A stretch of DNA of 64,000 bases from the NCBI GenBank assembly GCA_963676515.1, contig OY781061.1, positions 310,001 to 374,000 on the forward strand, read 5' to 3'. A program made the translations under genes and the position numbers. This stretch comes from G963667145 sp963676515 [NCBI: Candidatus Cloacimonadota bacterium] (lineage in GTDB: Bacteria > Cloacimonadota > Cloacimonadia > G963667145). The notes beneath the pieces are model-generated. The model did not search any database and was not told the DNA's origin. It worked only from the letters and a program-made list of their open reading frames with translations. Below, piece by piece: positions 1,559 through 29,171 of this stretch (its first letter is position 1; each line of letters opens with the position of its first letter).

Positions 1559-2248
1559 CTATTTATAATCCCGCTGCCCAAAAATAGAACTACCCACTCT
1601 AAGCATATTAGCACCACATTCCAAAGCCAGTTGATAATCTCCGCTCATTCCCATTGAGAGCCATTTCATCTTCGCACTAGGAATTGCCTTACACTTCTCA
1701 AATATCTCTGCCAGCATCATAAAACAGCTTTTGGTCTCTTGAATATCGGGACTCAAAGAGCCGATAGTCATAAGCCCCATAACCTCTAAGTGAGGGAGTT
1801 TAGACACATCTGCCACCAAATTAAAAGCTTCATCTTTACTTGCTCCAGATTTAGAAGATTCTTGAGAGGTGTTGATCTGCACGAGCACTTTTTGCTTTTC
1901 CCCAGTAGATGCTAGAGATTTATTAAGCTTTTCCGCAGTGGAGAGCTTATCCAAAGAATGGATAAGTGCGGGTTTGAGTAACAAAAGTTTGTTGATCTTA
2001 TTACTCTGCAGATGCCCAATAAAATGAAATTCTTTGTGTTCTTGAAGCAAAAGTGGGAGCTTCTCCGTCGCCTCCTGCACCTTGTTTTCCCCAATATACT
2101 TCGCTCCCGCTAATATGGCTTCGTCCACTTTTGGTGCTGTGTGTGTCTTAGTAACCACAATCAGTTTGACATCGCGACTCTCATCACCTATCTTTTGCAA
2201 AGTTTTTTTGATAGCTTTTCTCACTTCTTGCAAATTATCCGCTATCAT
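1559..2248 (-). CDS. yggS: YggS/PROSC-type PLP homeostasis protein
   Basis: A 229-aa protein of the YggS family: a single TIM-barrel domain like the N-terminal half of alanine racemase that binds pyridoxal 5'-phosphate and buffers the free vitamer. The expected PLP lysine is K34 in VVTKTHT. Other family marks are the GENKVQEA segment, FHFIGHLQSNK, LVQINTSQE and the phosphate-binding end SMGMSGDYQLALE. Length is normal. Its ATG overlaps the stop of the upstream acidic-tail gene as ATGA, so translation is probably coupled. It is the last gene of the fumarase run before the GTG-started membrane protein. Confidence 0.93.
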   Translation of the reverse strand: MIADNLQEVRKAIKKTLQKIGDESRDVKLIVVTKTHTAPKVDEAILAGAKYIGENKVQEATEKLPLLLQEHKEFHFIGHLQSNKINKLLLLKPALIHSLDKLSTAEKLNKSLASTGEKQKVLVQINTSQESSKSGASKDEAFNLVADVSKLPHLEVMGLMTIGSLSPDIQETKSCFMMLAEIFEKCKAIPSAKMKWLSMGMSGDYQLALECGANMLRVGSSIFGQRDYK

Positions 2249-2559
2249 AAATTCTCCAAATCGTCTAAGTCATCCAAAAAGTCATCATCATCATCGAAAT
2301 CTTCGTCGTCGTCCAACCCTTCATCCGTTATCCAGTCGGGACAAAAAAATACTGGGTCACGATAATCATAACCTGAGATATTTCCCACACCCAATTTCTC
2401 CAAAATCTCTTCTTCCCATACGGTGTAATAAACAAAATCGTCGTCCGTTTTATAACTCAATATCGGCTTGTTATACCGCTCAAAATCTATCTTTCTTTCT
2501 AAAAGTTCCAGAAACTGCTTTATCTTTTTTTTGTCATATTCAAACTGAAAATCACTCAT
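2245..2559 (-). CDS. Small hypothetical protein with a highly acidic C-terminal tail
   Basis: A 104-aa protein not recognised as a named family. The N-terminal 75 residues are mixed charged and aromatic (ISGYDYRDPVFFCPDW). The last 26 residues are almost entirely Asp and Glu with a few Leu and Phe. No membrane segment or signal peptide is visible. It is very likely real: its ATG overlaps the stop of the fumarase beta gene as ATGA, and its stop overlaps the yggS ATG in the same way, so it sits in a translationally coupled chain. The acidic tail could be a protein-binding or nucleic-acid-mimic segment; that is speculation. Confidence 0.75.
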   Translation of the reverse strand: MSDFQFEYDKKKIKQFLELLERKIDFERYNKPILSYKTDDDFVYYTVWEEEILEKLGVGNISGYDYRDPVFFCPDWITDEGLDDDEDFDDDDDFLDDLDDLENL

Positions 2560-3047
2560 AATATACTCCTTCCCTGAGCATCAACGCCAACCCAAAGGGG
2601 CATTTTGTCAACCAATAGTTTCCGGATTGCTTCCGTGCCTAGCTCTGGATAAAGCACTATTTCCTGAAAGATAATAGATTTAGCATAAAGCACACCACAT
2701 CCGCCTAAAGCCAAAGCGTACACCGCTTTGTTCTTTTGCAAAGATTTTTGTACCTCACTATTTCGAGGACCTTTGCCAATCAAAAGTTTCACTCCTTTTT
2801 CCAATAAAGCTGGTGTAAACTTGTCCATTCTGGCAGAAGTGGTAGGACCACAAGAGATTATCTTTTCCTGATTCAGTATCGGACCAGCGTAAAATATAGC
2901 CTGATCTTTCAGAGAAAAAGGCAAATCTTTCCCCTCTTGCAATAATTCCCAAAGTCTTAGGTGAGCAGCGTCGCGTGCCAGTAAAATCTCGCCACTGTAA
3001 TAAAACATCTCTCCCGCTTGTAAACTCTGTAACTCTTGTCTGTTCAT
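2556..3047 (-). CDS. Class I fumarate hydratase, beta subunit (C-terminal domain)
   Basis: A 163-aa protein matching the swivelling C-terminal domain of iron-sulfur fumarases and tartrate dehydratases. Family strings are LLARDAAHLRL, IFYAGPI, GPTTSARMDKF, LIGKGPRNSEV and ALGGCGVLYAKSI. It pairs with the alpha subunit upstream to interconvert fumarate and malate in the cytosol. Its ATG overlaps the alpha stop (ATGA at 3047-3044), giving 1:1 coupled synthesis. L-tartrate dehydratase beta is an alternative that sequence reading cannot exclude, but the lack of tartrate genes nearby favours fumarase. Confidence 0.88.
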   Translation of the reverse strand: MNRQELQSLQAGEMFYYSGEILLARDAAHLRLWELLQEGKDLPFSLKDQAIFYAGPILNQEKIISCGPTTSARMDKFTPALLEKGVKLLIGKGPRNSEVQKSLQKNKAVYALALGGCGVLYAKSIIFQEIVLYPELGTEAIRKLLVDKMPLWVGVDAQGRSIL

Positions 3048-3865
3048 AGCGTTAACTCGCTGTGTCTATTGACATAGCAACCCAAATTTATGGCAACAGG
3101 AAGGCTGGCAATATGGCAAGGAGCTGTCAAAATCTTCACCGCCAAGGCTGTAGGCTCATCTTCCAAACCTTGCGGACCTATCTTTAGCGATTGAATTTTC
3201 TGCAAAATAGATTTTTCCATCTGGGCGTAATCTTCATTTTGATTGGGCTCGTCTAAAGACAAAGCTAAAGATTTTTTCGCCAAAAGTGCTGCTTGCTCAA
3301 AATTACCGCCAATACCTATGCCCACTATATACGGTGGACAAGCGGCTGCACCCGTCTTGCGTATCCACTCCACGACAAAATTTTCTATCTCTATACTTGA
3401 TGCTGTGGGGTCGAACATCCGCAATGTGCTTTTATTCTCCGCACCTCCTCCCTTTGCCAGCAAGGTAAATTGCAGAAACTCACCCGGCACAAGCTCCGTG
3501 TGAAGCACAGCTGGAGTGTTGTCACCAGTGTTTACTCTATCAAACAGAGGATCTTCGACTATCGATTTGCGTAGATTCACATAACCAGCACGCACTCCAG
3601 AATTGACCGCTTCTACAAAATTACCGCCTACGATATGCACCTCTTGACCTATTTCAGCAAAAACCACCACCGTCCCTGTATCTTGGCAAATTGGCAGTTT
3701 TTCCGATTTTGCCAATTCGATGTTTTTTAGCATCATCGACACAACGCCTTGAGGTTGCTCGTATTTTTTCAGAGCATCGGCAATATTAGGGTCTAAATCT
3801 GTTGCCATCTCACGACAAACCTTAGCTATCTCGCTAATTATTCGTTTACAATCTATCTCTCTCAT
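3044..3865 (-). CDS. Class I fumarate hydratase, alpha subunit ([4Fe-4S])
   Basis: A 273-aa N-terminal domain of class I fumarase, which carries the oxygen-sensitive [4Fe-4S] cluster that binds the substrate hydroxyl. Likely cluster cysteines are C60 in PICQDTG and the one in AACPPYIVGIGIGG, with a third near the C-terminus (TAPCHIA). The GGGAENKS motif is also diagnostic. Length fits a stand-alone alpha subunit as in archaea and many anaerobes. It lies 10 nt downstream of mnmA and is followed by beta with a 4-nt overlap. The cluster type fits anaerobic life. Tartrate dehydratase alpha is the main alternative. Confidence 0.88.
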   Translation of the reverse strand: MREIDCKRIISEIAKVCREMATDLDPNIADALKKYEQPQGVVSMMLKNIELAKSEKLPICQDTGTVVVFAEIGQEVHIVGGNFVEAVNSGVRAGYVNLRKSIVEDPLFDRVNTGDNTPAVLHTELVPGEFLQFTLLAKGGGAENKSTLRMFDPTASSIEIENFVVEWIRKTGAAACPPYIVGIGIGGNFEQAALLAKKSLALSLDEPNQNEDYAQMEKSILQKIQSLKIGPQGLEDEPTALAVKILTAPCHIASLPVAINLGCYVNRHSELTL

Positions 3866-16357: not shown

Positions 16358-16821
16358 CTTTTATTTTCTCCTTCAAAAAAAACTCTTTTGCTACAAATCT
16401 TCTCTAAAATTTGCTATCTTATACTTTCTTTAGGCTACACCACGGGACTACACAGCACAGCCACAGAAAGCAAAAGAAAAATTAGAAGATAAAATGTCAA
16501 ATCATTTTTCGCTTTCAGCTGGACTCCTCTTTTCTTTGACTGCTATCGCAGGATATTACCTTTCTTGTTTTAGTGATAAAAAAGAAAGGTAACGCCAAAG
16601 AAAAAAATCAAAGTCATAAACCTCAATTCTAACTTGCAAAACTACCTTCGCAGTGGCTATAATTCGGGCTTAAAGTCTTTCACCCAAGCCTAAAGAAGAG
16701 ACCTAAGCTCCTCACACAGCCACTAACTCAGTCGTTTAAACAAGTTCACGAATATCGGCTTGAATGACTTGCTAGCCCAACTCAACCCTAACGGCATTCT
16801 TAAAGGATGTGTTTTTTGTGG
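16358..16821. other. Intergenic gap between rplM and the accessory region
   Basis: 464 nt without a convincing gene. The first 80 nt are the rplM leader. A perfect 11-bp inverted repeat (TTACCTTTCTT at 16556-16566 and AAGAAAGGTAA at 16582-16592) is the clearest structure. A 32-codon plus-strand frame from the ATG at 16494 covers it, starts MSNHFSLSAG and has one hydrophobic stretch; it has no good ribosome site and is not called a gene. The rest (16600-16821) holds nothing I recognise. Confidence 0.5.
16556..16592. repeat. Perfect 11-bp inverted repeat (hairpin)
   Basis: TTACCTTTCTT and AAGAAAGGTAA are separated by 15 nt. It could fold in either strand and lacks a clean U-run, so a repeat remnant is as likely as a terminator. 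Confidence 0.6.
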
Positions 16822-17436
16822 CTAATCTACGCCCAACTGGTCTATCTCTTCCATCATCTTGCTGGTGTGGTAGAGGCTGCAAATTATCTTTTGGTAATGC
16901 AGGATTTGCTCAAATCCGAGTGTTCTGCCGACTCTGTCTTTGAGCCACTTTTGTGCGGGCTGATAGCCACCGATGTAAAATTCCCAAGCGACCAAAGGCA
17001 CTAGGTCAAAATATTGACTGTCGTTTATCCAGACTTTGCCCATCTGCTGGTCGTCTGATTCGGCTACCCAGCCGGGATTTTTTTGCGTCATCTTGTGGGT
17101 TATCACATTGTCGCCGTCTATGGGATAGCTGGTGATGTACTGCTCCACCAGCGGACTTTCCAGCAAGTGCAGCCCTCTTAGGTTGCCACCCAACTTCACC
17201 AATTGCCAAAAAGTGTCTTTGTCTTTTGGATAAGGAACTCTGGGGAAATCAATTTTGAGGAACTCTTTGTATTTTTGGCGATAGTGGGGACTGTGCAACA
17301 CGGCGTAGATGTAATCTAGCAAATCTACGGGGGCAAAAGTCCCCTGCTCGCCGCTTGGCTCTGGGACGAACTGCAAGCCGATGGAGTTGGCTATCTCTTT
17401 TACTAGCTCGGGGTTAAGATTGGGGGTGCGTGTCAT
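16822..17436 (-). CDS. Type ISP-like restriction enzyme, detached C-terminal specificity domain
   Basis: A 204-aa protein equivalent to the C-terminal specificity domain of ISP-type restriction-modification enzymes. In intact relatives the segments NLNPELVKEIANSIGL, GTFAPVDLLDYIYAVLHSP and EFLKIDFPRVPYPKDK directly follow the methylase half. Here it is a separate ORF with its own ATG at 17436. Removing the inserted DNA upstream would place this ATG in an ATGA overlap with the end of the 858-aa protein, so the two were probably co-translated subunits before insertion. Whether it is still expressed depends on read-through from the DUF5677 gene, which overlaps it by 23 nt. Confidence 0.8.
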   Translation of the reverse strand: MTRTPNLNPELVKEIANSIGLQFVPEPSGEQGTFAPVDLLDYIYAVLHSPHYRQKYKEFLKIDFPRVPYPKDKDTFWQLVKLGGNLRGLHLLESPLVEQYITSYPIDGDNVITHKMTQKNPGWVAESDDQQMGKVWINDSQYFDLVPLVAWEFYIGGYQPAQKWLKDRVGRTLGFEQILHYQKIICSLYHTSKMMEEIDQLGVD

Positions 17437-18385
17437 TTAATTTCCTCTCCGCTTCAATAAATTTTTCAGCTATCAACTTTATTTGCAAACTCAACAACAT
17501 CAATTCTTTCAAATATTCTTTTTTAGGGTCACAAAGCAAGAAAGATATAACAGATTCTAATAATGAATGAGCTACCAATTGAGCTGGGTCAGCGAAACCA
17601 ACATTACTTCTATTACACAAAATAGTTTCACCCGAGACACCATTAATGTGACCAATATTATAAAAAAGTCCTGTTGGTCCACTATGTATAGGAATATTAG
17701 AATGTTTATAAAAATGCATTAATTCATCACTCTCTTTATTATATGAAAAAAAGTTATAAAGATTTATATTGTTTTTATTCAACACTTCATGTGCCCATCC
17801 ATAGTGTTTATCAAACCCTTTTCCATATTTATCTATACATTTATTTCTTTTTTGCTTCCAAAACTCTAAGTCCTCTTGTATATTTTTTCTTTCTTCAGGT
17901 CTAAATTTAATATAAGTTTCTGCTTCTCTCACTTTTTCAACATTAAGATAATCTAAATACTTTTCTGCTAAACTTTCATCATTTTTTGCCAAACATTTTG
18001 CGAAAGTTACAGTTTCAAATAAAGTTCTCCAACTTGAAAGAGCACCAGAAGCAAATCCATTTTTTACCAAACATAGAATTTCATTAGCACACAAAATAGA
18101 TTTGCCATTTAAAAATTTTAGAGCAGTAAATTTGTTATTATCTAGCAAAGTACAACCATGGTCAAAACGCTTAGACAAGCTTAAACATTCTTCAATAAAA
18201 ATTTCTAATAAATGAATTCCTTCAGTATAATTTTCTAGCAATCGAGCAAGATAACCAACAGAATAATCTCTTATCTTTAGGATGTGTTTATATCCTTCCA
18301 AATAATAATTATCTACAAAATTATCCTCAATCTTTGTTTTTTTTCTATCTTTCACAAGATTTAAATAATAATCTAGAAGTTCCAC
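17414..18385 (-). CDS. DUF5677-like protein inserted inside the restriction system
   Basis: A 323-aa protein with features of the DUF5677 family: a mostly helical fold with SSWRTLFETVTFAKCLAKND in the middle and conserved histidines near HFYKHSNIPIHSGP. Function unknown; relatives are scattered near mobile and defence genes. It starts at a GTG (18385) lying within the 125-bp repeat, with GGAAA upstream. The base composition is much more AT-rich than the flanking restriction genes, pointing to transfer. Its last dozen codons are read from the target DNA: the frame crosses the 9-bp direct repeat and runs 23 nt into the specificity-domain ORF. Confidence 0.65.
   Translation of the reverse strand: MELLDYYLNLVKDRKKTKIEDNFVDNYYLEGYKHILKIRDYSVGYLARLLENYTEGIHLLEIFIEECLSLSKRFDHGCTLLDNNKFTALKFLNGKSILCANEILCLVKNGFASGALSSWRTLFETVTFAKCLAKNDESLAEKYLDYLNVEKVREAETYIKFRPEERKNIQEDLEFWKQKRNKCIDKYGKGFDKHYGWAHEVLNKNNINLYNFFSYNKESDELMHFYKHSNIPIHSGPTGLFYNIGHINGVSGETILCNRSNVGFADPAQLVAHSLLESVISFLLCDPKKEYLKELMLLSLQIKLIAEKFIEAERKLNDTHPQS
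17442..17450. repeat. Direct repeat TTCCTCTCC, left edge of the DUF5677 insertion
   Basis: The same 9 bp occurs at 18638-18646, where it encodes the last residues of the 858-aa restriction protein. It resembles a target-site duplication enclosing about 1.2 kb. Confidence 0.55.
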
Positions 18386-18667
18386 TATTCGTTTCCTATT
18401 TCCATTTGCTGGGTTTCTCTCTCACAGACTTTACTCTGGGAGTGTGTCTTGTCGCGTATGCATTCCCAAGCTGGAGCTTGGGAACGAGGAGAAGGTTTAT
18501 TTGTTCCCACTATTCGTCTCCTATTTCCATTTGCTGAGTTTCTCGCTCACAGACTTTACTTTGGGAGTGTGTCTTGTCGCGTATGCATTCCCAAGCTGGA
18601 GCTTGGGAACGAGGAGAAGGTTTATTTTTTCCCACTATTCCTCTCCTATTTCCATTTGCTGGGTTTC
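18382..18667. repeat. 125-bp tandem repeat, 2.3 copies, with palindromic core
   Basis: Copies start at 18382 and 18507, and a partial third at 18632, with a strict 125-bp period and few mismatches. Each copy begins with about 35 bp equal to the 3' end of the 858-aa restriction gene, then unrelated sequence ending in the near-palindrome CCAAGCTGGAGCTTGG (18472-18487 and 18597-18612). I recall this TTCCCAAGCTGGAGCTTGGGAA-like core, split here across two mentions, as a dispersed repeat in many bacterial genomes, but cannot check it. Small plus-strand frames across it are artefacts. Confidence 0.85.
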
Positions 18668-21211
18668 GTCTTCTTCATAAAGATAGAGAGGAAAAATTGA
18701 AGTCAAAAATCTATCACTTAGTCTAGCTTCAATCATATTAGTGCTAATAAAAACACTACTAAACTCTTTTTCTTTATTTATCCTAATCGTTGCCAATCCC
18801 AAATTGTCCCCTTTCAAAAAATGTTGCATCACATCTAACCGACTTCTTTCAATAAAATTAGAATTATAATATAACCATCTATCATCAAAAGGTCGATAAG
18901 AAACTCTTTTCACACATTCATTATCAAAACAATCAACTTCATTTTTTACTTCATCAATTTTCCAACTTTTATTTTCTTTCAAACCATATTTAAAAACTAA
19001 AGTGTCTTTATCTAAAAGAAAAAAATCGTTTATTCGGGATTTTAAAGTTTCTTGACTCTCATCAATCACAAATTTATCCCTTGAAGTAACAATACCAACA
19101 TTATTCACAGGAAACAAATCTTTCACAGAAAACCCTTTTTCATATTCGCCTAGCAGTTCGTTATCTTTGGGCACAAAGAAATAGTTCGGCTCTTTGCATT
19201 CCAGCTCTTGCCAAGCGATATTATCGACACTGTGCTCATTCAAGAAATTATACTTATTCTCTCGCTTGCCATAGAGGTCGCAGTGTCTGACTTTCGCCAA
19301 ATCTTTATTGTCGCCTTTCTTGACGAAGATGTTGATGCTCACCCCTTGCATAATGTCGAAGACATTGTCGTCTTTGCTTCCGTCTGGGCAAACCTCTTTT
19401 TTCTTGGCGTTGCCGTGTAAATCTAATGTGTAAATCTTATCAAAACTTTGCAGAAGATTCCAACGCATTCCCCTAAAAGTCGGGTTGTCCAAAAATCCGT
19501 GTGGATTGATAAAAGCCAAAACCCCCTCGCCGTTCTTATCGATGTAATGTTGACCGAAGCGGATAAATTTCACATAATCGTCGTTGATCCATTTGGAGTT
19601 TCGCTCTTGCAATTTTACTTTGCCCCCTGGCTCTTTTTTGTAATTTTCCATTATGTTCATTATCCAGTCGCCCTTGTTTGAGCTTTCCCCTGAATACGGT
19701 GGATTGCCGATGACGCACATTACTGGTGTGTCTCGCTTGATGTGGTTGGCTTCGTTCGCCTCGGTGCTGAGCCAAGCAGAAAAGATGCTTCCCGTGTCGG
19801 GGTGTTCCTCCTCAAGTGAGTTGGTTAGGTAGATGTTGAACCGCTGGTCTTTGGTCGCCAGATAGCCTGTCTCCCGCAGGAGCATGTCTAGCTTGAGATG
19901 AGCCATCGAGTAGCTCGCCATCAGCAGCTCAAAGCCGTTGAGCCGTGGTATGAGATGCTCCTGTACATATGAGCTCCACGCACCTTGCATCGCCTTGAAT
20001 TTCTTGCCATAGATATACTTTACCACTTCTACCAAAAAAGTGCCTGTGCCTGTGGCTGGGTCCAAGATTTGCACCTTGTGAACCTCTTTTTCCGCTTGCT
20101 TATATCCTGTCTTGGAGCGGTTGTCGGGAGTTTGGGTGTCCACTTTTATCTTGGTTTTGCTGGTGTCGGCTAGCCCCTCTGGCAGTCCAAACTCTTGCTT
20201 GAGGATAGCGTCCACCGACCTTACGATAAACTTCACCACTGGCTCTGGCGTGTACCACACACCTCTGGCTTTTCGCAATTTGGGGTCATACTCTCCCAGA
20301 AAGGTTTCGTAGAAATGGATTATCGGGTCTTGCATTTTGGTAGGTTTACCAAAGTTTTTCAGAAGCTCTTTGATGTTGGTAGCTCGATACACATCGGCGA
20401 GGTTGTCCACGGTGGTTTTTATCCTCTCATCGATGTCTGGACCGGCTATGTAACCAAATAGACGACGCAAAAATGGATTGGACTTGGGGATTAGCTCTGC
20501 TGCCTCGTATCTACTAAAATCGTCTAAAGTTTTATCGTTGAGTCTTGCGGCAAACATCCCATAAGCCAAAGTTTGCGAGTAAATGTCAGCAAAAGCTCTG
20601 GGTGTTAGGTCGTGGATCAAGATGCTTTTAAAAGTTTTATACTGCCCTTGCAAAGAGCTATTTTCCGCAGTTTGTTCATCTGCGCGCAAAGCCTTTTCCA
20701 AAATATTTTGCAAAAGTTTTGCCTTGCCTGCCATCATCTTAGCCAGCTTAGAGGGATATTTTATCGTCTGTCCGATGTATTGACAAAAATCTACCAGTAA
20801 ATTCTCGAAATGTGCAAAATTTTCTGGGCAAGGCACTATCTTGCCATCCACTATTTCAGCTATTCGCACTTCATGCACCAGTTTTTCGCTTTGATAAAAT
20901 CTGAACCACAAATAGTCGGTAATTATCAGATTGTCCAAGGCTTTACGATAGCGGTCAAATTGTTCTTTGTAAAGTTTCGCCGTTAAATCTTTCCCTACAT
21001 CTTTTGCCTCTATGTAGCCAATGGGTATTTTCCCTTTGGTTAATACATAGTCGGGATTACCACAATCTGTCACATTCGCTGGCTCGTTCGTTACCTCCAC
21101 CCCAGAAGTCAGATTTCTAATCAAATCTTCCAAGTCTCCCCTATACGAGTGTTCACGGCTGATACCCGAAGCATATCTGGTGCTAACTTTTGCTAAATAT
21201 TCACTTATCAT
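18635..21211 (-). CDS. Type ISP/IIG-like restriction-modification enzyme (nuclease + N6-adenine methylase)
   Basis: An 858-aa protein. The N-terminus carries a PD-(D/E)XK-type nuclease motif (NPDYVLTKGKIPIGYIEAKD, about residues 52-71). A helical coupler follows. The methylase has motif I DPATGTGTFLVEV near residue 382 and the N6-adenine motif NPPYSG near residue 503. No SF2 helicase motifs are seen, so it resembles the shorter helicase-less ISP-annotated or type IIG enzymes. The C-terminal specificity domain is absent and encoded separately at 16822-17436. The last 170 codons are clearly more AT-rich than the rest, suggesting a swapped recognition segment. The 3' end is duplicated in the adjoining 125-bp repeats. 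Confidence 0.85.
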   Translation of the reverse strand: MISEYLAKVSTRYASGISREHSYRGDLEDLIRNLTSGVEVTNEPANVTDCGNPDYVLTKGKIPIGYIEAKDVGKDLTAKLYKEQFDRYRKALDNLIITDYLWFRFYQSEKLVHEVRIAEIVDGKIVPCPENFAHFENLLVDFCQYIGQTIKYPSKLAKMMAGKAKLLQNILEKALRADEQTAENSSLQGQYKTFKSILIHDLTPRAFADIYSQTLAYGMFAARLNDKTLDDFSRYEAAELIPKSNPFLRRLFGYIAGPDIDERIKTTVDNLADVYRATNIKELLKNFGKPTKMQDPIIHFYETFLGEYDPKLRKARGVWYTPEPVVKFIVRSVDAILKQEFGLPEGLADTSKTKIKVDTQTPDNRSKTGYKQAEKEVHKVQILDPATGTGTFLVEVVKYIYGKKFKAMQGAWSSYVQEHLIPRLNGFELLMASYSMAHLKLDMLLRETGYLATKDQRFNIYLTNSLEEEHPDTGSIFSAWLSTEANEANHIKRDTPVMCVIGNPPYSGESSNKGDWIMNIMENYKKEPGGKVKLQERNSKWINDDYVKFIRFGQHYIDKNGEGVLAFINPHGFLDNPTFRGMRWNLLQSFDKIYTLDLHGNAKKKEVCPDGSKDDNVFDIMQGVSINIFVKKGDNKDLAKVRHCDLYGKRENKYNFLNEHSVDNIAWQELECKEPNYFFVPKDNELLGEYEKGFSVKDLFPVNNVGIVTSRDKFVIDESQETLKSRINDFFLLDKDTLVFKYGLKENKSWKIDEVKNEVDCFDNECVKRVSYRPFDDRWLYYNSNFIERSRLDVMQHFLKGDNLGLATIRINKEKEFSSVFISTNMIEARLSDRFLTSIFPLYLYEEDETQQMEIGEE
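18638..18646. repeat. Direct repeat TTCCTCTCC, right edge of the DUF5677 insertion
   Basis: Partner of 17442-17450. It lies inside the last codons (GGA GAG GAA on the minus strand) of the 858-aa gene. Confidence 0.55.
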
Positions 21212-21304
21212 TGCGTTACCTTCTTTTATCTCTTAACCAAAATTAAAAGATTCTAGACACCAATAAAAATCAAGTGTTATTTAGTTTTTAATTGTTCTCC
21301 TCGA

Positions 21305-21601
21305 CTACTTTCCTAAAAAAGATTCCAAATTATGCACATACTCTAAAAACTGGTCTCTGCCTTTTGCCGTTAAGCTATAAACGGTTTTCGGCTTGTTATT
21401 TACAAACTTTTTCTCTACCCCGATGTACTGCACCTCTTCCAACTTTTTCAAGTGTGTGGAGAGATTGCCATCGCTCGCCTGAGTAATTTCCTTGAGATAA
21501 TTGAAATCAGCTTTTTCTACCGTTACCAGAGTAGAGATGATCGCCAAGCGAATCGGCGAATGGATTATTTTGTTAATCTTCTGGTAATTAATTTTTTCCA
21601 T
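21305..21601 (-). CDS. Winged-helix transcriptional regulator (HTH_34-type)
   Basis: A 98-aa DNA-binding protein with one winged-helix domain: HSPIRLAIISTLVT, then the recognition region FNYLKEITQASDGNLSTHLK and the wing VNNKPKTVYSLTAKG. Proteins of this kind usually sit next to a small membrane protein and control it. Here the start overlaps the 3' end of the 192-aa membrane protein gene by 14 nt, so the two are co-expressed. The signal sensed is unknown. Confidence 0.87.
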   Translation of the reverse strand: MEKINYQKINKIIHSPIRLAIISTLVTVEKADFNYLKEITQASDGNLSTHLKKLEEVQYIGVEKKFVNNKPKTVYSLTAKGRDQFLEYVHNLESFLGK

Positions 21602-22166
21602 TTTTACTTCTCTTATAAATAATAATTCCCGGAACTACTTGCAGCAAAATCAACAATCCTGCAAAAACTAGGAGAGAATTTATAGAAATCCAAAGTGAAA
21701 AAACGATCGCGGCTGCTAACCAACAAAAGGAAATAAGTCTTAACAAATTGTCCTGATACAAATTTCCAGTAATATAAAAAGCTACGAAGAGAATCACACT
21801 GGGGAAAATGGGGATTATCCGTGGGGCGATGTAAGGAGAAAACGCAGCCACAAGAAGCAAGAAAATCAAAGCGACAATAGATGCTATCCAAACATTGCCT
21901 ACTATCTTGTCCAAAAAGTTAGTCGCTCCTAAATTTCTTCTTTTGTTAATCGTAATCGAGAATGCTATGCCTACGATGTTGGCTACCGTCCAAATTAAAC
22001 CCTTATAGACTGAATTTGAGATTAGGAGATAAGTCGCGACGCTAGCAATAGCTGTCAGTATCCCCCAGGCAATATAGTGCAATCCGTTGTCTGCAAACCT
22101 TCTTTTCGATTTTTCGATGGTCTCTTTTATTAAATTTATCTCTTCACTGAGTTTATGGTTTTCCAT
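21588..22166 (-). CDS. Small multi-spanning membrane protein, partner of the regulator
   Basis: A 192-aa protein of no named family. A charged N-terminal helix (about residues 1-27) is followed by five or six hydrophobic segments (for example YIAWGILTAIASVATYLLI, LIWTVANIVGIAFSITI, IASIVALIFLLLVAAFSPYI) and a basic tail. The overlap with the winged-helix gene downstream suggests a regulator/membrane-protein pair. It is the first gene of the pair, with no RNA structure apparent in front. Confidence 0.7.
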   Translation of the reverse strand: MENHKLSEEINLIKETIEKSKRRFADNGLHYIAWGILTAIASVATYLLISNSVYKGLIWTVANIVGIAFSITINKRRNLGATNFLDKIVGNVWIASIVALIFLLLVAAFSPYIAPRIIPIFPSVILFVAFYITGNLYQDNLLRLISFCWLAAAIVFSLWISINSLLVFAGLLILLQVVPGIIIYKRSKNGKN

Positions 22167-22302
22167 AAATCCCCCTCTTTTTTATTATGCAAAGAACTTT
22201 GTTTTACAAAGTGAAAAGTGTCAAGGAGTTTTTTGAGGTTTTCTCTTACCAGAGTTGCTCTTCATCTTTTCGTTGGTCGAAAAGACGAAGCAGAAAAGCC
22301 CA

Positions 22303-22456
22303 CTCTGCTCCCTAAGGTGGCAGTCGTTTCGCGTCACCAGCAGAGCGATAAGTGTGGTCGTTCCCGTATTATATACCTAGCTTGCTATTTTCTTATTTCT
22401 AGCTCTAGCGTTTTTATTACGAAGTTTTGTGACTGCCACTTTGGTAGTGAGCAGAG
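22303..22456. repeat. MITE-like element with about 24-bp imperfect terminal inverted repeats
   Basis: The left end CTCTGCTCCCTAAGGTGGCA (22303-22322) continues GTC. The right end 22431-22456 is its reverse complement with two or three mismatches and a small indel (it includes GACTGCCACTTT and GTGAGCAGAG). Total length is 154 bp, with an AT-rich centre and no coding capacity. This fits a small non-autonomous transposon or a folded RNA; no transposase is nearby. Confidence 0.5.
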
Positions 22457-22556
22457 AAATTTCAACCTATCCCCATCACCTAGCAAATACAAAGTAGCTA
22501 TGTGAAACTCACCCTTTAAAAATACCATCAGGGTGGGGCAGGTTAATAAAAAACAT

Positions 22557-22702
22557 TAAGCGAGTAGCTTACAATTACTTACGCCGAGCGAGCTACGCTG
22601 AAAAGCGATGTGCTATATCACCAAAAAATGATAAAATGTGATTCATAGCACGAGGTTTGTCAGCGTGCGAGAGAAGGCTTAGTAATTTTGCTAGTTGCTT
22701 AG
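22557..22702. repeat. Long imperfect palindrome, possible MITE or structured RNA
   Basis: Arms 22557-22601 and 22660-22702 are inverted copies with scattered mismatches: TAAGC...AATTACT...CGCTGA against TCAGCG...AGTAATT...GCTTAG. Inside them a second pair, GTGCTAT (22610-22616) and ATAGCAC (22645-22651), continues the stem. The whole could fold into one hairpin of about 146 nt. Confidence 0.5.
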
Positions 22703-22724
22703 GTTTTTTTGACTTTACCTTTTG

Positions 22725-22760
22725 TTACTTTTAGCTTTGGTCAGCCAAAGGGAAAAGTAA
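22725..22760. repeat. Strong hairpin with TCAG loop
   Basis: TTACTTTT, AG, CTTTGG, TCAG, CCAAAG, GG, AAAAGTAA: 14 paired positions with one symmetrical 2-nt internal loop. It begins 22 nt past the large palindrome and may be part of it. Confidence 0.65.
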
Positions 22761-22856
22761 GACCCTCCGTCAGGAGAACAAATTAAAGAAGAAATGTAAT
22801 CCCTCTGCGTTAGCAGGCAAAGAAAGGCAATAAACCAACTACAAAAGAAAAATAAC

Positions 22857-23030
22857 CTATTTTTGTTTTTTGCTTTTTTTTTCAAAAAGAGGAAACTCCC
22901 CTCTCACCTTCTCCGCCAGCTTCTCGCCCACACCTTTGACTGTCTGAAGCTCTTCCATAGTCGCCTCTTTCACGCCCTGCACCGAGCCAAACTCCCGCAG
23001 GAGGTTATACTTGGTCTGCTCGCCCACCAC
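22857..23030 (-). pseudogene. Displaced copy of the uvrC 3' end
   Basis: On the minus strand 23030 to about 22895 matches the uvrC segment 26014 to about 25878 at roughly 92% (about 11 differences in 130 nt), nearly all at silent third positions. The encoded residues VVGEQTKYNLLREFGSV and TVKGVGEKLAEKV (the second helix-hairpin-helix) are the same in both. The copy then diverges to a different tail (RGEFPLFEKKSKKQK) and a TAG at 22859-22857. It has no start and abuts the ORF6N gene stop. It looks like the former 3' end of uvrC, cut off when the island entered. Confidence 0.85.
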
Positions 23031-23039
23031 AAGAGACCC

Positions 23040-23909
23040 TTAACTCTCCAACCTGCCGAGTATCTCCACAGCTCCCATCTCAAATTTGTTAAATGCGAAC
23101 CAGCGTTTACCGAGGTCTTTTAGCGATGCCCCAAAATGGTAAACTTCTTTGCCATCAATTATCAAAAACCTGTCGTGGGAGTTTTTGAAAACTTCCACTT
23201 TGATGGGGAAATACTGAGCCGTAAATTTCGCCAGATCCAATGAAAGCTTCTTGTTTATCTGCTGCGTATATATTGTGATTTTGATGCCCTTGCATTTTGC
23301 GAAGAGAAGAAAAGTATTCTCGTCGATGTAATTGTCTATCAAGACGATTTGCTTTTTGGCGGTGCTGATCAAATCGATGACAAATCTATAAGCATCAAAT
23401 ATTTGCCCATCGAAAAACACCCCTTGTTTGGAAACTAAGCTCTTGTCTTCTAGTGCTTTAAAAATTTTGTCAACTTTTTGGTCTGTTTTTATTAGCTTTT
23501 GTTCAACACCTTCCAGCCTTTGGAAAATTCCCGCATTTTGGGAGAGGAAATTTTTTACAGAAACGAAAGCTCTCATAATTTTAATGTTTATTTCTATAGC
23601 TCTGTCACTTTTCAGGACACTAGAAATCATCGCCACTCCTTGCTCTGTAAAGGCGTATGGCTTAGCACCTCCAAGGTGCTTTTTGGATGGTATCACAAAT
23701 TGTGACACCATCTTTTCTATTTCCTGCGTTGTTAAGACAAACATAAAATCTGCTGGAAATCTTTTGATATTTCTGTTTACTGCTTGTTTTAGCACTCTTG
23801 TCTCCACGCCGTAAAGTTCAGCTAGGTCTCTGTCGAGCATCACCTGATGCACACGGATAGTGAAAATTTTGCCTTTGATGTCAGCTTCTATTGCCTCTAG
23901 TTCGCCCAT
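23040..23909 (-). CDS. ORF6N-domain protein
   Basis: A 289-aa protein. Residues 10-95 form an ORF6N domain (HQVMLDRDLAELYGVETRVL, RFPADFMFVLT), a KilA-N relative of phage and mobile DNA. A coiled-coil-like linker follows (RLEGVEQKLIKTDQKVDKIF). The C-terminal half has the PLD-like string HDRFLIIDGKEVYHFGASLK. ORF6N proteins are abundant in FCB-group genomes, but their role is unsettled; antirepressor and anti-phage roles have been proposed. GGGAGAG lies just before the ATG. It is the leftmost gene of the island flanked by the two uvrC ends. Confidence 0.85.
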   Translation of the reverse strand: MGELEAIEADIKGKIFTIRVHQVMLDRDLAELYGVETRVLKQAVNRNIKRFPADFMFVLTTQEIEKMVSQFVIPSKKHLGGAKPYAFTEQGVAMISSVLKSDRAIEINIKIMRAFVSVKNFLSQNAGIFQRLEGVEQKLIKTDQKVDKIFKALEDKSLVSKQGVFFDGQIFDAYRFVIDLISTAKKQIVLIDNYIDENTFLLFAKCKGIKITIYTQQINKKLSLDLAKFTAQYFPIKVEVFKNSHDRFLIIDGKEVYHFGASLKDLGKRWFAFNKFEMGAVEILGRLES

Positions 23910-24100
23910 TTTACTCTCCCAATTTTGTTTGGTTTCGCAATAATATTGGTTTGTCTCTGGCTCTGCCCATGAAGCGGAGGAAACCCAGTCCTGCCTAGCA
24001 AATTAATTTTTCATGTATCCACTTATTTTTATTGACAGATATTTTATTCTTTTGTCTCTTCGAAAAAAAATCAAAATAAAACAAAAAAGGAATGAAAATT

Positions 24101-24891
24101 ATGATTGAAACTCTTTATAGAAGCGACACATTATTTCGATTCAGTGAACCATGCAAAAATTATAAAAATCCTTCTGATTGCCAAAATTGTCTGGAAAAAA
24201 GCTGGTACAATAAAGAAGAAGAAAATACGATTGTATAAAAAAAAACTCTTATTATGCTTTAAATTATGGACTATCATATAGTAGTGAAATATATCACTAT
24301 TTGGCTCATACAAAAATTTTAGAAAAAAAAATTTCTGGTAAAGAAATTAAAGTATTATCGCTTGGATGTGGCTTTTCTCCAGATCTAATCGCACTAGAAA
24401 AATATATCGAAGATAAACAATTACAAATAAAGATTAATTATACTGGCATTGATAACTCGAATATTTGGAAATATATAAGAATCAATTCAAACAAAGCAAC
24501 ATATGAAAATAAAGACATTTTAGACGGATTTTGTTTGAAAGATTTTGATATAGTTTTTATGGTTAAATTATTTTCAACTTTACTAAACAATTCATTGCAT
24601 GAAAAATTCCTTAATTTATTACGAGAAGAAATTAGAACAAATTTAAAAGAAAACTCTTTTTTAATTTTTGCAGATATAAATCATCACGAAAAAGGCAAAG
24701 ACCTTTTTGATAAAAATATAAAAGATTTGTTCAAAAAGAAACAATCCTTTTTTTTCCCCATTGAAAATGCATACAAAGGCGACTACGAGCCTATACGCAA
24801 CACAAAAATCGTGTATGAAATTCCTGAAAATCTGGCTATATCCCCCAAAGATACTGTTTGCAAAACTGTAATTTTTGAATATAGGAAATAA
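24101..24891 (+). pseudogene. Class I SAM-methyltransferase-like gene, apparently frameshifted
   Basis: An N-terminal piece (ATG 24101 to TAA 24238, preceded by AAGGA) has a cysteine motif, CKNYKNPSDCQNCLEK. The frame then breaks at the A-rich site 24235-24245. The next frame continues through YYALNYGLSYSSEIYHYLA to the stop at 24891. Adding one base would give one 263-aa protein. The body carries a Rossmann motif I (VLSLGCGFSPDLIALE) and YTGIDNS, typical of SAM-dependent methyltransferases. The strong AT bias matches the DUF1848 gene after it. Either it is a broken gene, a sequencing error in the A run, or a slippage-dependent one; a shorter product from the TTG at 24301 is possible. Target unknown. 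Confidence 0.6.
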
Positions 24892-24895
24892 ACCT

Positions 24896-25834
24896 ATGAT
24901 TATAAGTGTAAGCAGAAGAACTGACATACCAGCATTCTATTCAGATTGGTTTTATGAAAGAATAAAGAAAGGATTCGTTTATACAAGAAATCCAATGAAT
25001 ATACATCAAATAAGCAAAATTGATTTAAATCCTAAAGTCGTTGATTGTTTTGTTTTTTGGACAAAAAATCCTACCCACTTTATGAAGAACCTTAATAATC
25101 TAGATTATTATAATTATTATTTTCAATTTACCATAACTGGTTATGGTAAAAAATTAGAGCCGAATGTTCCCAGTCTTAAAAATTCTATAGAAAACTTTAA
25201 AAAATTATCAAGACTTATTGGTAAAAATCGTGTTATCTGGAGATACGACCCAATTATCATCACTGAAGATTGTGACATCCATTATCACATAAAAAATTTT
25301 GAATTCATTGCATCACAACTTACTAAATATACTGATAAATGCATAATTAGCTTTGTTGACTACTATAAAAAGACAGTAAAAAATATGGTTCACATAAAAG
25401 ATACACCCATAACAAAAGATCAAATTTACAAATTAGCAACGAATTTTGTCTCGATTGGTAAAAAGTATGGCTTAATCATCAACAGTTGTGCTGAGAAAAT
25501 CAACTTAGAAAACCAGGGAATTGAGCATGGCAAATGTATCGACAATAGACTAATTGAAGAGATATCAGACTATAAACTAAAAATTTCTAAAGACAATACT
25601 CAACGCACTGAGTGTGGCTGTGTTACAAGCATTGATATTGGTGCATATAATACATGCCTACACGGTTGTGTTTACTGTTACGCAAACTATATTTCAAACA
25701 AAGTAAAAGAAAACTACGCATTACACGATAAAAAAGGAGAACTTCTATATGGTTCTATTTCGGAAGAAGATAAAATAACAACAAGAAAAATAAAAAGTTA
25801 TAAAATTACACAACAAAGATTATTCGGTTTATAA
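24896..25834 (+). CDS. DUF1848 family protein with radical SAM-like cysteine motif
   Basis: A 312-aa protein. The start ATG at 24896 (MIISVSRRTDIPAFYS) follows a GGAAA site and lies 4 nt after the methyltransferase-like gene. The N-terminal SRRTDIPAFY and WTKNP strings and the late Cys motif CLHGCVYCYANY (preceded by CGCVTSIDIG) are hallmarks of DUF1848. The C-x3-C-x2-C spacing is that of radical SAM clusters, although it sits near the C-terminus rather than the N-terminus. Its function has not been established to my knowledge. The very AT-rich codon use differs from uvrC next door, in line with recent gain. Confidence 0.85.
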   Translation: MIISVSRRTDIPAFYSDWFYERIKKGFVYTRNPMNIHQISKIDLNPKVVDCFVFWTKNPTHFMKNLNNLDYYNYYFQFTITGYGKKLEPNVPSLKNSIENFKKLSRLIGKNRVIWRYDPIIITEDCDIHYHIKNFEFIASQLTKYTDKCIISFVDYYKKTVKNMVHIKDTPITKDQIYKLATNFVSIGKKYGLIINSCAEKINLENQGIEHGKCIDNRLIEEISDYKLKISKDNTQRTECGCVTSIDIGAYNTCLHGCVYCYANYISNKVKENYALHDKKGELLYGSISEEDKITTRKIKSYKITQQRLFGL

Positions 25835-25846
25835 CTGGTACTCTTC

Positions 25847-27634
25847 TTAAATTTTATTAACACTGTTTAGTTCCCCCAGCTCCCCCTTCACCTTCTCCGC
25901 CAACTTCTCCCCCACACCTTTCACCGTCTGAAGCTCTTCCACAGTTGCTTCTTTGACGCCCTGCACCGAGCCAAACTCCCGCAGGAGGTTGTACTTGGTC
26001 TGCTCGCCCACCACGCTGTCCAACTCGCTAGCTAGCGTCCGCATCGAGCGGCGTTTGCGGTGATAAGTAATCGCAAAGCGATGAGCCTCGTCCCGCAGGT
26101 GGACGATCATCTTCAGAGCCAGCGACTTGCGAGGAAGCATTATCGAGTCAGATTGCCCCGGCAAAAAAACCTCTTCCAGCCTTTTGGCGAGGGAAACTAT
26201 CGCTATATCGACCTTCATCTCCTGCAAAATCTCCAAAGACGACGAGAGCTGACCTTTGCCGCCATCCACCACGATCAGATCGGGCTTTTCGTACTGGTCG
26301 AGCTTCGCTAGATACCGCCGCAGAGTTTCCTGCATACTGGCAAAGTCGTCTTGCCCCTGCACCTCTTTCATCTTGAAGTGCAGATAGTTCTTCTTCTTGG
26401 GTTTGCCGTTCTCAAAAAAAACCAGCGAAGAGACGGTGTCGCTACCTTGGATGGTGGAAATATCTATGCAGATAATCTTGGTAGGTAGCACCGACAAGCC
26501 CAACGCCCGCTTCAGCTCCAACACTGGCACTGCTGTGCGTGCCGACCGCCTTAGGTATTTCAGCCTCTCTTGTTCCACCAAATCGAAGGCGTTTTGCCTT
26601 GCCATCCAGAGCAGTTTACTCAGCTTCCCTTTTTGCGGTACAAAGAGGCTTAATCGCTCCAGCAACTCTTCGTCCAACTCGCCTTGAGGGTCTAGCTCTA
26701 GCAGTATCTGCCACGGCAACACATCCAGCCTCGGCAAATAGTACTGCTTCAGGAAAGCTGACAAGACCTCTTGCATACTCTTACCCGCTATGTTTTTCAG
26801 CGGATAAGTCTCTTTGCCGACCAATCTGCCTTCCACTAGCTTCAGCACCGCTATCGCTCCCAGATTTTCTTCCAGATAACCCACAACCACATCTCTTCTT
26901 TTATTGTCTTCAAAATAAACCGTCTGCTTCTGCCCCAGCTTTTGCAAGCTCTCCCACTGCAATTTGTAAACCGCCGCTTTTTTGTAATCCATCTTTTCCG
27001 CCGCAGAATCCATCAGCCGCTGCAAATCCGCACTTATCACTTTGCTCGCACCCGAAAGGAACTTTTTCACCCTCTGCACCAGCAACTTATATTCCTGACT
27101 CAGGCTTTCATCGGCTTCGCACACGCCCACACATTTGCCTATTTGATAATTAAGACACCGCTTTTTCGCCATCGTGTTGCATTTTCGCAAAGGAAAAATC
27201 TCTTCCACCATCTGCTTGACCCTGTGCATCGCACTGGCATCGGTGAAAGGTCCGAAGTAGTCGCCCTTATCGTGCTTTTGCTCTCTGGTTACCACTAGGC
27301 GTGGATACGGCTCGTCCGTCAATTTCAGAAATGGGTAGCGTTTGTCATCTTTGAGCAAGATGTTATATTTTGGGCGATATTTTTTGATGAGGGTGTCTTC
27401 CAAAATTAGAGCCTCGTGAGCACTGGAGACCATTATGTAGTCCAAATCGGTCACATTTTCCACCAGCTTACGGGTTTTCAGGTCGGACTTCTTGCCAGCG
27501 AAATAGCTCCGTACGCGGTTTTTCAGACTGGTGGCTTTGCCCACATAGATTATTTTGCCCGCTTTGTTTTTCATCAGGTACACGCCAGCCTGATCGGGTA
27601 ATGTCACCAGCTTCTGCCTGAGATTCGGATTCAT
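25847..27634 (-). CDS. uvrC: UvrABC excinuclease subunit C
   Basis: A 595-aa nucleotide-excision-repair nuclease. The N-terminal GIY-YIG domain (DQAGVYLMKNKAGKIIYVGK) makes the 3' cut. A UVR motif follows (about residues 200-235). The RNase H-like C-terminal half with ICIDISTIQGSD and VVDGGKGQLS makes the 5' cut. Tandem helix-hairpin-helix motifs (TVKGVGEKLAEKV) close it. The last 45 codons also exist as a diverged copy at 22857-23030, so the present 3' end was probably supplied by the incoming island. It starts 1 nt after the murJ stop. Confidence 0.96.
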   Translation of the reverse strand: MNPNLRQKLVTLPDQAGVYLMKNKAGKIIYVGKATSLKNRVRSYFAGKKSDLKTRKLVENVTDLDYIMVSSAHEALILEDTLIKKYRPKYNILLKDDKRYPFLKLTDEPYPRLVVTREQKHDKGDYFGPFTDASAMHRVKQMVEEIFPLRKCNTMAKKRCLNYQIGKCVGVCEADESLSQEYKLLVQRVKKFLSGASKVISADLQRLMDSAAEKMDYKKAAVYKLQWESLQKLGQKQTVYFEDNKRRDVVVGYLEENLGAIAVLKLVEGRLVGKETYPLKNIAGKSMQEVLSAFLKQYYLPRLDVLPWQILLELDPQGELDEELLERLSLFVPQKGKLSKLLWMARQNAFDLVEQERLKYLRRSARTAVPVLELKRALGLSVLPTKIICIDISTIQGSDTVSSLVFFENGKPKKKNYLHFKMKEVQGQDDFASMQETLRRYLAKLDQYEKPDLIVVDGGKGQLSSSLEILQEMKVDIAIVSLAKRLEEVFLPGQSDSIMLPRKSLALKMIVHLRDEAHRFAITYHRKRRSMRTLASELDSVVGEQTKYNLLREFGSVQGVKEATVEELQTVKGVGEKLAEKVKGELGELNSVNKI

Positions 27635-27635
27635 C

Positions 27636-29171
27636 TTATTTTCTTATTTTTCCTAATAAGTTCAGCCATTGCTGGACTTGCAGTGCATACGCCAACACTA
27701 AAAAGACCAGCGAACCCAAAAATCCCAAGGCTATAAATTTAACCAAAAGAGGAAAAAATCCAGCATTATTAACAAAATAATTGTTGAGAATATCGACCAA
27801 AAACCAGACAAAAATCCCCGCAATTAAAATCTTGGTGACTTCTTGCAGTGGAAATTGCAAAAATTTGTAGCGAACGCTTACCCAGCAAAAGAGCATTACG
27901 CTTTGCAATACCGCCGAGCACAGTGTAGCCAGAGCCAAGCCAGCAGCACCCATATATTGCATAAACCAAAGGTTGAAGCCGATATTTGCCAGCAGTGCCA
28001 CCACCGACACCTTGACTGGCGATTTGGTGTCGCCATGTGCATAAAAGAGGCTGACCAAGATATGATTGAAGCAGAAGAAGGTCAAAGCCAACACATAGTA
28101 AAAAAATGGAGCATAGGTCATCTCCACGGCTGTCTGGTCGAATATACCGCGAGCAAAGAGAATGGTGATGTATTCCCGACCCAAGCTGACCATCAGAGCG
28201 GTGATAGGGACCATCAGGAAGGCAGACAGCACCAAAACATGGGAGAAGGTCTTTTGCAGCTCCATGCGGTCATTTCTAGCCACCAACTTGGAAAAGACAG
28301 GCAAGCTCGCCGACCAGATAGGCACACCCAGCACGCCTAGTGCCAGCTGCATCAGGCGATAAGAGTAACTAAGGCTAGAGGCACTGCCGACCACCAAAAA
28401 GGATGCCAAGAACAAATCTACATAGGTGTTGAGTTGACGCACGCCGATGCCAAAAATCCCCGGCAAAAATCTTCGCCAAACTTGGTCTAAGTGATCTGTG
28501 CTCCACACAAATTTTAGCTTGTAACCGATTTTCTTCAGAAAAGGAAGATTGACTAGCAGCTGCAGCACTCCACCGACCACGATGCCCCAAGAGTAAGCTT
28601 CTACTTTCTGCACAGAATCGCCACCTACCCAGAAAACAAATCCACCGATAACCGCAATCGCACCCAGATTAAAAAAGGCTGCCGAAAGAGCTGGCCAAAA
28701 GAAGTAGTCATGATAGTTCAAGATAGCGATCAGCATCGACGCAGTTCCTATCAAAAAGAGGTAAGGCATCATTATTCTGGTCAAGCTGATGGTCAAGAGC
28801 ACAGTGCTATCACTTAGCCCGGGAGCGACTATCTTTACCAAGTATGGAGCAAATAGTGTCCCCATCACCGAAAAAAGCAGCAAAATCACCGACAAGAGGG
28901 TGAGCAAGGAAAGACCAAACCGCACTTGAGCCAAGCGACCATTTTTCTCTTCCACCTCCCCATACAGGGGGATAAAGGCTGCAGCCAAAGCTCCTTCGCC
29001 GAAGAGAAGTCGCAAAAAATTGGGAATGCGGTAAGCGTAATTGAAAGCGTCTGCCAGATAACTAACGCCAAAGAAAGCGGTAAAAATAATGTCTCGCACC
29101 AAACCCAAGACCCTTGAAATCATTACCGCCGAAGACATCGAACCGACTTTTTTCAGCATTTTTACACTCAT
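27636..29171 (-). CDS. murJ: Lipid II flippase MurJ
   Basis: A 511-aa inner-membrane protein with about 14 helices of the MVF/MOP superfamily, moving lipid II to the periplasm for peptidoglycan synthesis. The start SSAVMISRVLGLVRDIIFTA and GALAAAFIPLYGEV are characteristic. It lies 11 nt after an mltD-like gene and 1 nt before uvrC, a cell-wall and repair run. Confidence 0.94.
   Translation of the reverse strand: MSVKMLKKVGSMSSAVMISRVLGLVRDIIFTAFFGVSYLADAFNYAYRIPNFLRLLFGEGALAAAFIPLYGEVEEKNGRLAQVRFGLSLLTLLSVILLLFSVMGTLFAPYLVKIVAPGLSDSTVLLTISLTRIMMPYLFLIGTASMLIAILNYHDYFFWPALSAAFFNLGAIAVIGGFVFWVGGDSVQKVEAYSWGIVVGGVLQLLVNLPFLKKIGYKLKFVWSTDHLDQVWRRFLPGIFGIGVRQLNTYVDLFLASFLVVGSASSLSYSYRLMQLALGVLGVPIWSASLPVFSKLVARNDRMELQKTFSHVLVLSAFLMVPITALMVSLGREYITILFARGIFDQTAVEMTYAPFFYYVLALTFFCFNHILVSLFYAHGDTKSPVKVSVVALLANIGFNLWFMQYMGAAGLALATLCSAVLQSVMLFCWVSVRYKFLQFPLQEVTKILIAGIFVWFLVDILNNYFVNNAGFFPLLVKFIALGFLGSLVFLVLAYALQVQQWLNLLGKIRK

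Follow-up and report, generated by a model that had tools for sequence, protein, structure and literature searches.

How does the 3′ end of a core repair gene come to stand on both sides of a block of other genes? The question is raised by a 64,000-nucleotide stretch of a Candidatus Cloacimonadota bacterium (contig OY781061.1, positions 310,001 to 374,000 of the forward strand; hereafter the window), in which two diverged copies of the end of uvrC enclose about 3 kb holding a complete ORF6N gene, a methyltransferase-like gene and a DUF1848 gene. The answer favoured here, which we consider fairly probable, is that this cassette entered together with the uvrC end of another lineage and that the old end was left behind as a scar. 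Displaced gene ends and one-sided recombination are already known; the point that matters is their recurrence around solitary genes that are candidates for phage defence.

Both ends lie on the minus strand (Table 1) and form a direct repeat of 135 nucleotides (nt) that aligns without gaps. The 11 differences are spread over 10 codons, eight of them silent, and the only amino-acid changes are Met/Val and Arg/Lys; by the Nei-Gojobori method there are nine synonymous and two non-synonymous changes (synonymous divergence, dS, 0.353; non-synonymous divergence, dN, 0.020), a silent excess with P = 8e-5 under neutrality. Within the 64 kb only one other family of direct repeats of at least 40 nt was found (seed 14), a 125-bp tandem duplication, and chance can therefore be excluded as the origin of the uvrC repeat. 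An intact uvrC terminates in the right copy; the left one has no gene body: its 45 shared codons are followed by 12 of its own and by its own stop (22857-22859). The original prediction had described just such a recurrence, in the same orientation, about 92% identical, with nearly all differences silent and a different tail and stop, and the alignment bears this out; nor is the left copy part of an unrelated HhH gene, as it matches UvrC codon by codon. Since the divergence is almost all silent, both ends, judged by their sequences, appear to have been selected as working ends before they met, as had also been predicted.

If the uvrC end had instead been duplicated within this lineage and had then diverged in place, no foreign DNA would be needed; such a stranded end without a gene body would be unselected, yet nine of the 11 changes are silent. 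The base composition of the cargo differs as well, with G+C contents of 0.29 (DUF1848), 0.26 (methyltransferase-like) and 0.39 (ORF6N) against 0.50 for uvrC and a mean of 0.44 for 28 core genes, the AT-rich part being the DUF1848 and methyltransferase-like genes and not ORF6N. We regard this explanation as very improbable. An assembly artefact that joined strain variants is likewise scarcely to be expected: the window may be a metagenome record, but the two ends share no more than 35 consecutive bases, and the same architecture is found in a complete genome (that with e14, described next) and in several other contigs.

A precedent is provided by prophage e14 of Escherichia coli K-12, flanked by the end of icd on one side and by the pseudogene icdC on the other; e14 is reported to part 163 bp from the icd 3′ end and to supply the end itself (PMC6379469). 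Measured likewise, the e14/icd repeat is 165 nt long and 92.7% identical, with 12 differences, nine silent and two changed codons, dS 0.364 and dN 0.016. As at icd, the window block is bordered at both edges by a diverged direct repeat of a housekeeping-gene 3′ end with almost only silent changes, a working gene is restored with what is taken as the incoming end, the end taken as displaced stands on the far side, and defence genes lie near both ends (lit and mcrA in e14, candidates in the window). The block differs from e14 (15.2 kb, with intE) in its length of about 3 kb and in the lack of an integrase, neither this enzyme nor another site-specific recombinase being found among its three genes with Pfam and PADLOC. 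The gene content and missing integrase of the original prediction are thus confirmed.

This likeness brings up a rival origin, an e14-like site-specific element whose integrase and most of whose remainder were later lost. Besides the agreement with e14/icd in length, identity, silent bias and defence genes towards the ends, it is favoured by the identity of the first 23 nt of the window repeat and by a phage-deposited record (L017) in which a tyrosine integrase is followed immediately by a methyltransferase-like/DUF1848 pair. It is opposed by the absence of any recombinase among the block genes and by the comparable loci described below, whose break points differ both in the gene hit and in the codon. 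Moreover, in a search of low sensitivity for a 45-amino-acid (aa) tail from another phylum, the matches listed for phages (40 of 42 records) and for plasmids (40 of 83) included no clear carrier of the uvrC tail only; they were UvrC-like matches and weak ones, some in DNA ligases. A stripped element of this sort is conceivable at uvrC but less plausible for the loci taken together, and as the origin of the window block we hold it to be rather unlikely.

According to the reading that we favour, entry of the cassette with a foreign uvrC end, DNA from a related lineage would have arrived carrying that end, followed by the DUF1848 and methyltransferase-like genes and the ORF6N gene, which belongs to the phage-defence candidate (PDC) family PDC-S05. 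This DNA would have paired with the resident uvrC, with a RecA exchange inside the gene on the homologous side, while immediately after ORF6N its other end would have been linked, by a non-homologous join, to a point within the resident uvrC end. The cell would thereby have gained the cassette and a functional uvrC whose end is new, and on the far side the old end would have stayed as a scar without a gene body. The shared 135 nt would be compatible with a homologous exchange somewhere inside uvrC, and on the other side the uvrC similarity begins abruptly, 9 nt behind the ORF6N stop. A non-homologous join of this kind would have to fall in the interval from the cargo to the next gene that the cell needs. 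We infer that the end now in use is the foreign one, and that it came either by homology-facilitated illegitimate recombination (HFIR) or by a single crossover of a self-ligated circle, which would leave the same product.

HFIR has been measured in transformation and in conjugation. It has been proposed for type VI secretion system effector modules of Vibrio cholerae, where older gene ends are shifted back (PMC5361080), and one-sided recombination for dimorphic loci in E. coli (PMC2884548); in E. coli conjugation, ligation followed by a single crossover gave the same phenotype about ten times more commonly than HFIR (PMC3240628). On the favoured reading, the window would resemble HFIR in having homology on one side only, a non-homologous join on the other and an older gene end shifted back. 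It would differ from the described cases, which concern effector modules or markers, in that a cassette of defence candidates would have been carried in on a core repair gene.

How often does uvrC carry such a scar? Among 140 uvrC loci from four phylum samples (of 191 genomes with a match, chosen more or less as they were listed, with omissions), of which a first set of 80 includes 71 with at least 2 kb behind the stop and a second set holds 60, a second uvrC 3′ end was found once, in locus L062 of the Omnitrophota sample; the second set yielded no case. In L062 the copy is 80 nt long, 86% identical and 1.4 kb downstream, with 27 shared codons, the first 21 of which give dS 0.33; the single gene in between, a DUF4143 gene, matches PADLOC PDC-S01 (5.9e-66), and the insert holds no integrase. 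The scar at uvrC is therefore rare, and its fragment starts at a different codon in L062 than in the window; uvrC as a special hot spot is unproven. Several candidates were dropped: L073, L075 and L078 had matches of only 20-31 nt; L076, L113, L114, L115, L117, L128, L131, L134 and L137 reflect UvrB/UvrC motif kinship, all nine being UvrB by Pfam; and L038 (a repeat gene), L136 (a copy that is not partial) and L073 and L166 (weak) were not kept as gene-end copies. In L051 a comEC-like gene (1827-3428) has its start repeated upstream as a diverged copy (919-1000; 82 nt, 92.7% identical) with a gene in between, a scar of this sort at a 5′ end; L127 has a decayed copy of a HAD-hydrolase end, and L147 has 37 nt of a uvrC start.

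The cargo was then taken as the point of departure, in one phylum sample. ORF6N (PF10543) has matches in 210 of the 384 genomes of the Omnitrophota sample (E 1e-12), up to ten in each; in a second phylum sample, one of 249 genomes has a match (E 1e-20). The first eight ORF6N loci included two with flanking repeats, L173 and L176. The full set of 98 loci (8 + 30 + 60, at least two places being double) contains 108 ORF6N genes, 106 of them distinct and 101 testable for flanking direct repeats (45 nt or longer, with a copy no more than 600 nt away on either side of the gene). Such repeats flank 14 of the 101, against three of 195 size-matched genes (100-350 aa) of the same phylum (Fisher P = 4e-5); the controls, which come from uvrC neighbourhoods, further comprise one of 161 larger genes of the same phylum and, in other phyla, three of 618 size-matched and none of 456 larger genes. 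L051 and L062 are among the control loci in which such repeats were found.

Four of the 14 cases (L176, L177, L243 and L260) involve the 3′ end of a gene next to ORF6N, repeated as a displaced copy on the far side of ORF6N. The neighbour in L176 is a class I tRNA synthetase, which by eye we take to be leuS, and 24 codons of its end recur with 10 silent and no other changes; in L177 it is the large chain of carbamoyl-phosphate synthase (carB; 54 codons, dS 0.61, dN 0.037), in L243 a Mg-chelatase-like protein, presumably yifB/comM (66 codons, dS 0.36, dN 0.041), and in L260 an Eco57I-type methylase, a restriction-modification gene (27 codons, interrupted by one stop in the displaced copy). All four ORF6N proteins match PDC-S05, as does that of the window, and the inserts are without integrase. 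L173, with yifB-end fragments on both sides of ORF6N, has no intact yifB in its 2.7 kb and stands outside the four; its double fragments would fit successive displacements. The repeats of L200, L205, L209, L221, L227, L231, L249 and L265 are non-coding or unclassified, and that of L239, located where a uvrC-like frame starts, shows no likeness as protein; none of these was counted as a gene end.

Compared as proteins, displaced ends occur at four of 106 ORF6N genes and at none of 141 size-matched genes (P = 0.033). When only ORF6N genes at most 400 nt behind the end of a gene of at least 150 aa are considered, the figure is four of 68, against one of 236 control genes (at least 270 aa) in the same phylum and six of 607 elsewhere, five of which are UvrB/UvrC motif kinship (P = 0.006 if these five are included and 4e-4 if they are not). 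The shared fragments measure 24 to 66 codons and begin at differing codons (45 codons in the window, 27 in L062), a variation that fits joining at varied points better than a single attachment core. In these loci a target gene that has a single end is closely followed by the cargo, and beyond the cargo stands a diverged, mostly silent fragment of that same end; the inserts lack an integrase and the break points vary. One-sided recombination predicts this architecture.

Twelve of the 98 ORF6N loci, each from a different genome (L169, L173, L178, L185, L197, L204, L215, L216, L242, L243, L244 and L257), contain a yifB homologue, and two contain uvrC-like genes. ORF6N lies behind yifB in nine of the 12 (in L173 behind a fragment only) and before it in three. 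The chance expectation is 0.33, assuming six genes per locus and 1800 per genome, for a gene picked after L243 had been seen. A hot spot for ORF6N at yifB is thus a lead, and an old neighbourhood or a shared function would also explain the association.

Several observations weigh against an entry by one-sided recombination, at the window or across the class. Neither an empty site nor a donor has been seen: no full-length UvrC above 44% identity to that of the window was found in the phylum-sample genomes searched, no relative was confirmed in viral-contig scans with UvrC, ORF6N and DUF1848, and megablast of 16800-27700 against plasmids and phages gave no match. HFIR is rare where it has been measured, about 3e-10 per recipient in E. 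coli conjugation (PMC3240628), and an element with fixed ends could also account for the tight joins at the two edges of the block, where the stranded end follows the ORF6N stop after 9 nt and the stops of DUF1848 and uvrC are 12 nt apart. Most of the 14 flanking repeats are not gene ends, and since nine of 198 other genes in the ORF6N loci are also flanked by repeats (P = 0.006 against ORF6N), part of the signal belongs to the neighbourhoods. The account in the original prediction, of an incoming end and a stranded resident one, nevertheless agrees with the silent divergence, the e14/icd precedent and the independent loci, while the foreign copy and the empty site are parts that it has to suppose. 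The class, which it had seen as one event at uvrC, proves wider, occurs with other genes and seemingly tracks the cargo, single genes of PDC type.

A broader proposal, put forward tentatively and as possible rather than probable, is that ORF6N/PDC-S05 and DUF4143/PDC-S01 are integrase-free mobile cassettes that ride the 3′ ends of housekeeping genes (uvrC, leuS, carB, yifB) between species, the end serving as a homology arm, the target being restored with the donor end and the old end remaining as a datable scar; ORF6N may even help the exchange. How single-gene defence systems move without the machinery of mobile elements is not well explained. Many PDCs are reported not to be tied to known defence islands and most to be without validation, and the passages covered describe no route by which PDC genes enter genomes (PMC12988326); nor was a link between displaced ends and solitary defence-candidate genes found in the part of the literature covered. 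Displaced ends would offer a scar readable from sequence only, which marks arrivals and names the anchor gene, its silent divergence giving the distance to the donor. If the pattern holds, integrase-free arrivals could be counted in any genome collection, and a hot spot at yifB could be tested.

Table 1. Features at the duplicated uvrC end, in coordinates of the window.
Feature	Position	Strand	Basis
Stranded uvrC 3′ end: 45 shared codons (22896-23030), 12 own codons and stop	22857..23030	-	
9-nt join from ORF6N stop to stranded uvrC end; probably a non-homologous join	23031..23039	.	
ORF6N-domain gene, complete, 289 aa, phage-defence candidate PDC-S05	23040..23909	-	PF10543 7.4e-33; PADLOC PDC-S05 6.8e-112
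Methyltransferase-like gene, true start unclear	24301..24891 (listed open frame)	+	PF13847 24.5 bits, below cut-off 27; L021 homologue 4e-13
DUF1848 gene, likely start ATG at 24896	24875..25834	+	PF08902 361 bits; PADLOC RTasDUF1848 3.5e-53
12 nt separating the convergent DUF1848 and uvrC stops	25835..25846	.	
Intact uvrC, 595 aa, working gene with present 3′ end	25847..27634	-	TIGR00194 527 bits (cut-off 285); Pfam domains
Shared 3′ end of working uvrC	25880..26014	-	124/135 bases identical to 22896-23030

The window ORF6N protein belongs to its PADLOC family (model PDLC04869), which it matches over residues 8-287 of 289, and its closest plasmid homologue is 57% identical over residues 8-288, from which the gene can be taken as complete. 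On the strength of such family matches, the cargo may have an anti-phage role. The C-terminal half of the protein (residues 160-270) weakly matches PADLOC NsnC (3e-4) and DrmC (3e-3), and is perhaps a phospholipase-D-like nuclease domain; its sequence relatives in the PDB are two weak helicase matches.

A methyltransferase-like gene precedes a DUF1848 gene in two phage-deposited records too, L017 and L021; in L021 a transposase follows the pair and, by eye, a transposase-like frame stands before it. The window methyltransferase clearly matches that of L021 over 190 positions and weakly that of L017 (7e-5, 68 positions), and in seven other DUF1848 loci the methyltransferase matches are weak at best (L023, 3e-4; L019, 0.003). 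An N-terminal part of the window gene may lie within 24101-24300 in another frame (24101-24238), and a frameshift, a sequencing error or an internal start are possible reasons for the break.

At lower coordinates in the window, a Type ISP restriction-modification gene (16822-21211) is split, with positions 1-160 of Type_ISP_C in 18635-21211 and 166-341 in 16822-17436. A DUF5677 gene (17414-18385) lies between the parts, another accessory gene inside a host gene. A palindrome is contained in the 125-bp tandem duplication (18382-18631, 96%), which also carries a repeat of the end of the restriction-modification frame upstream.

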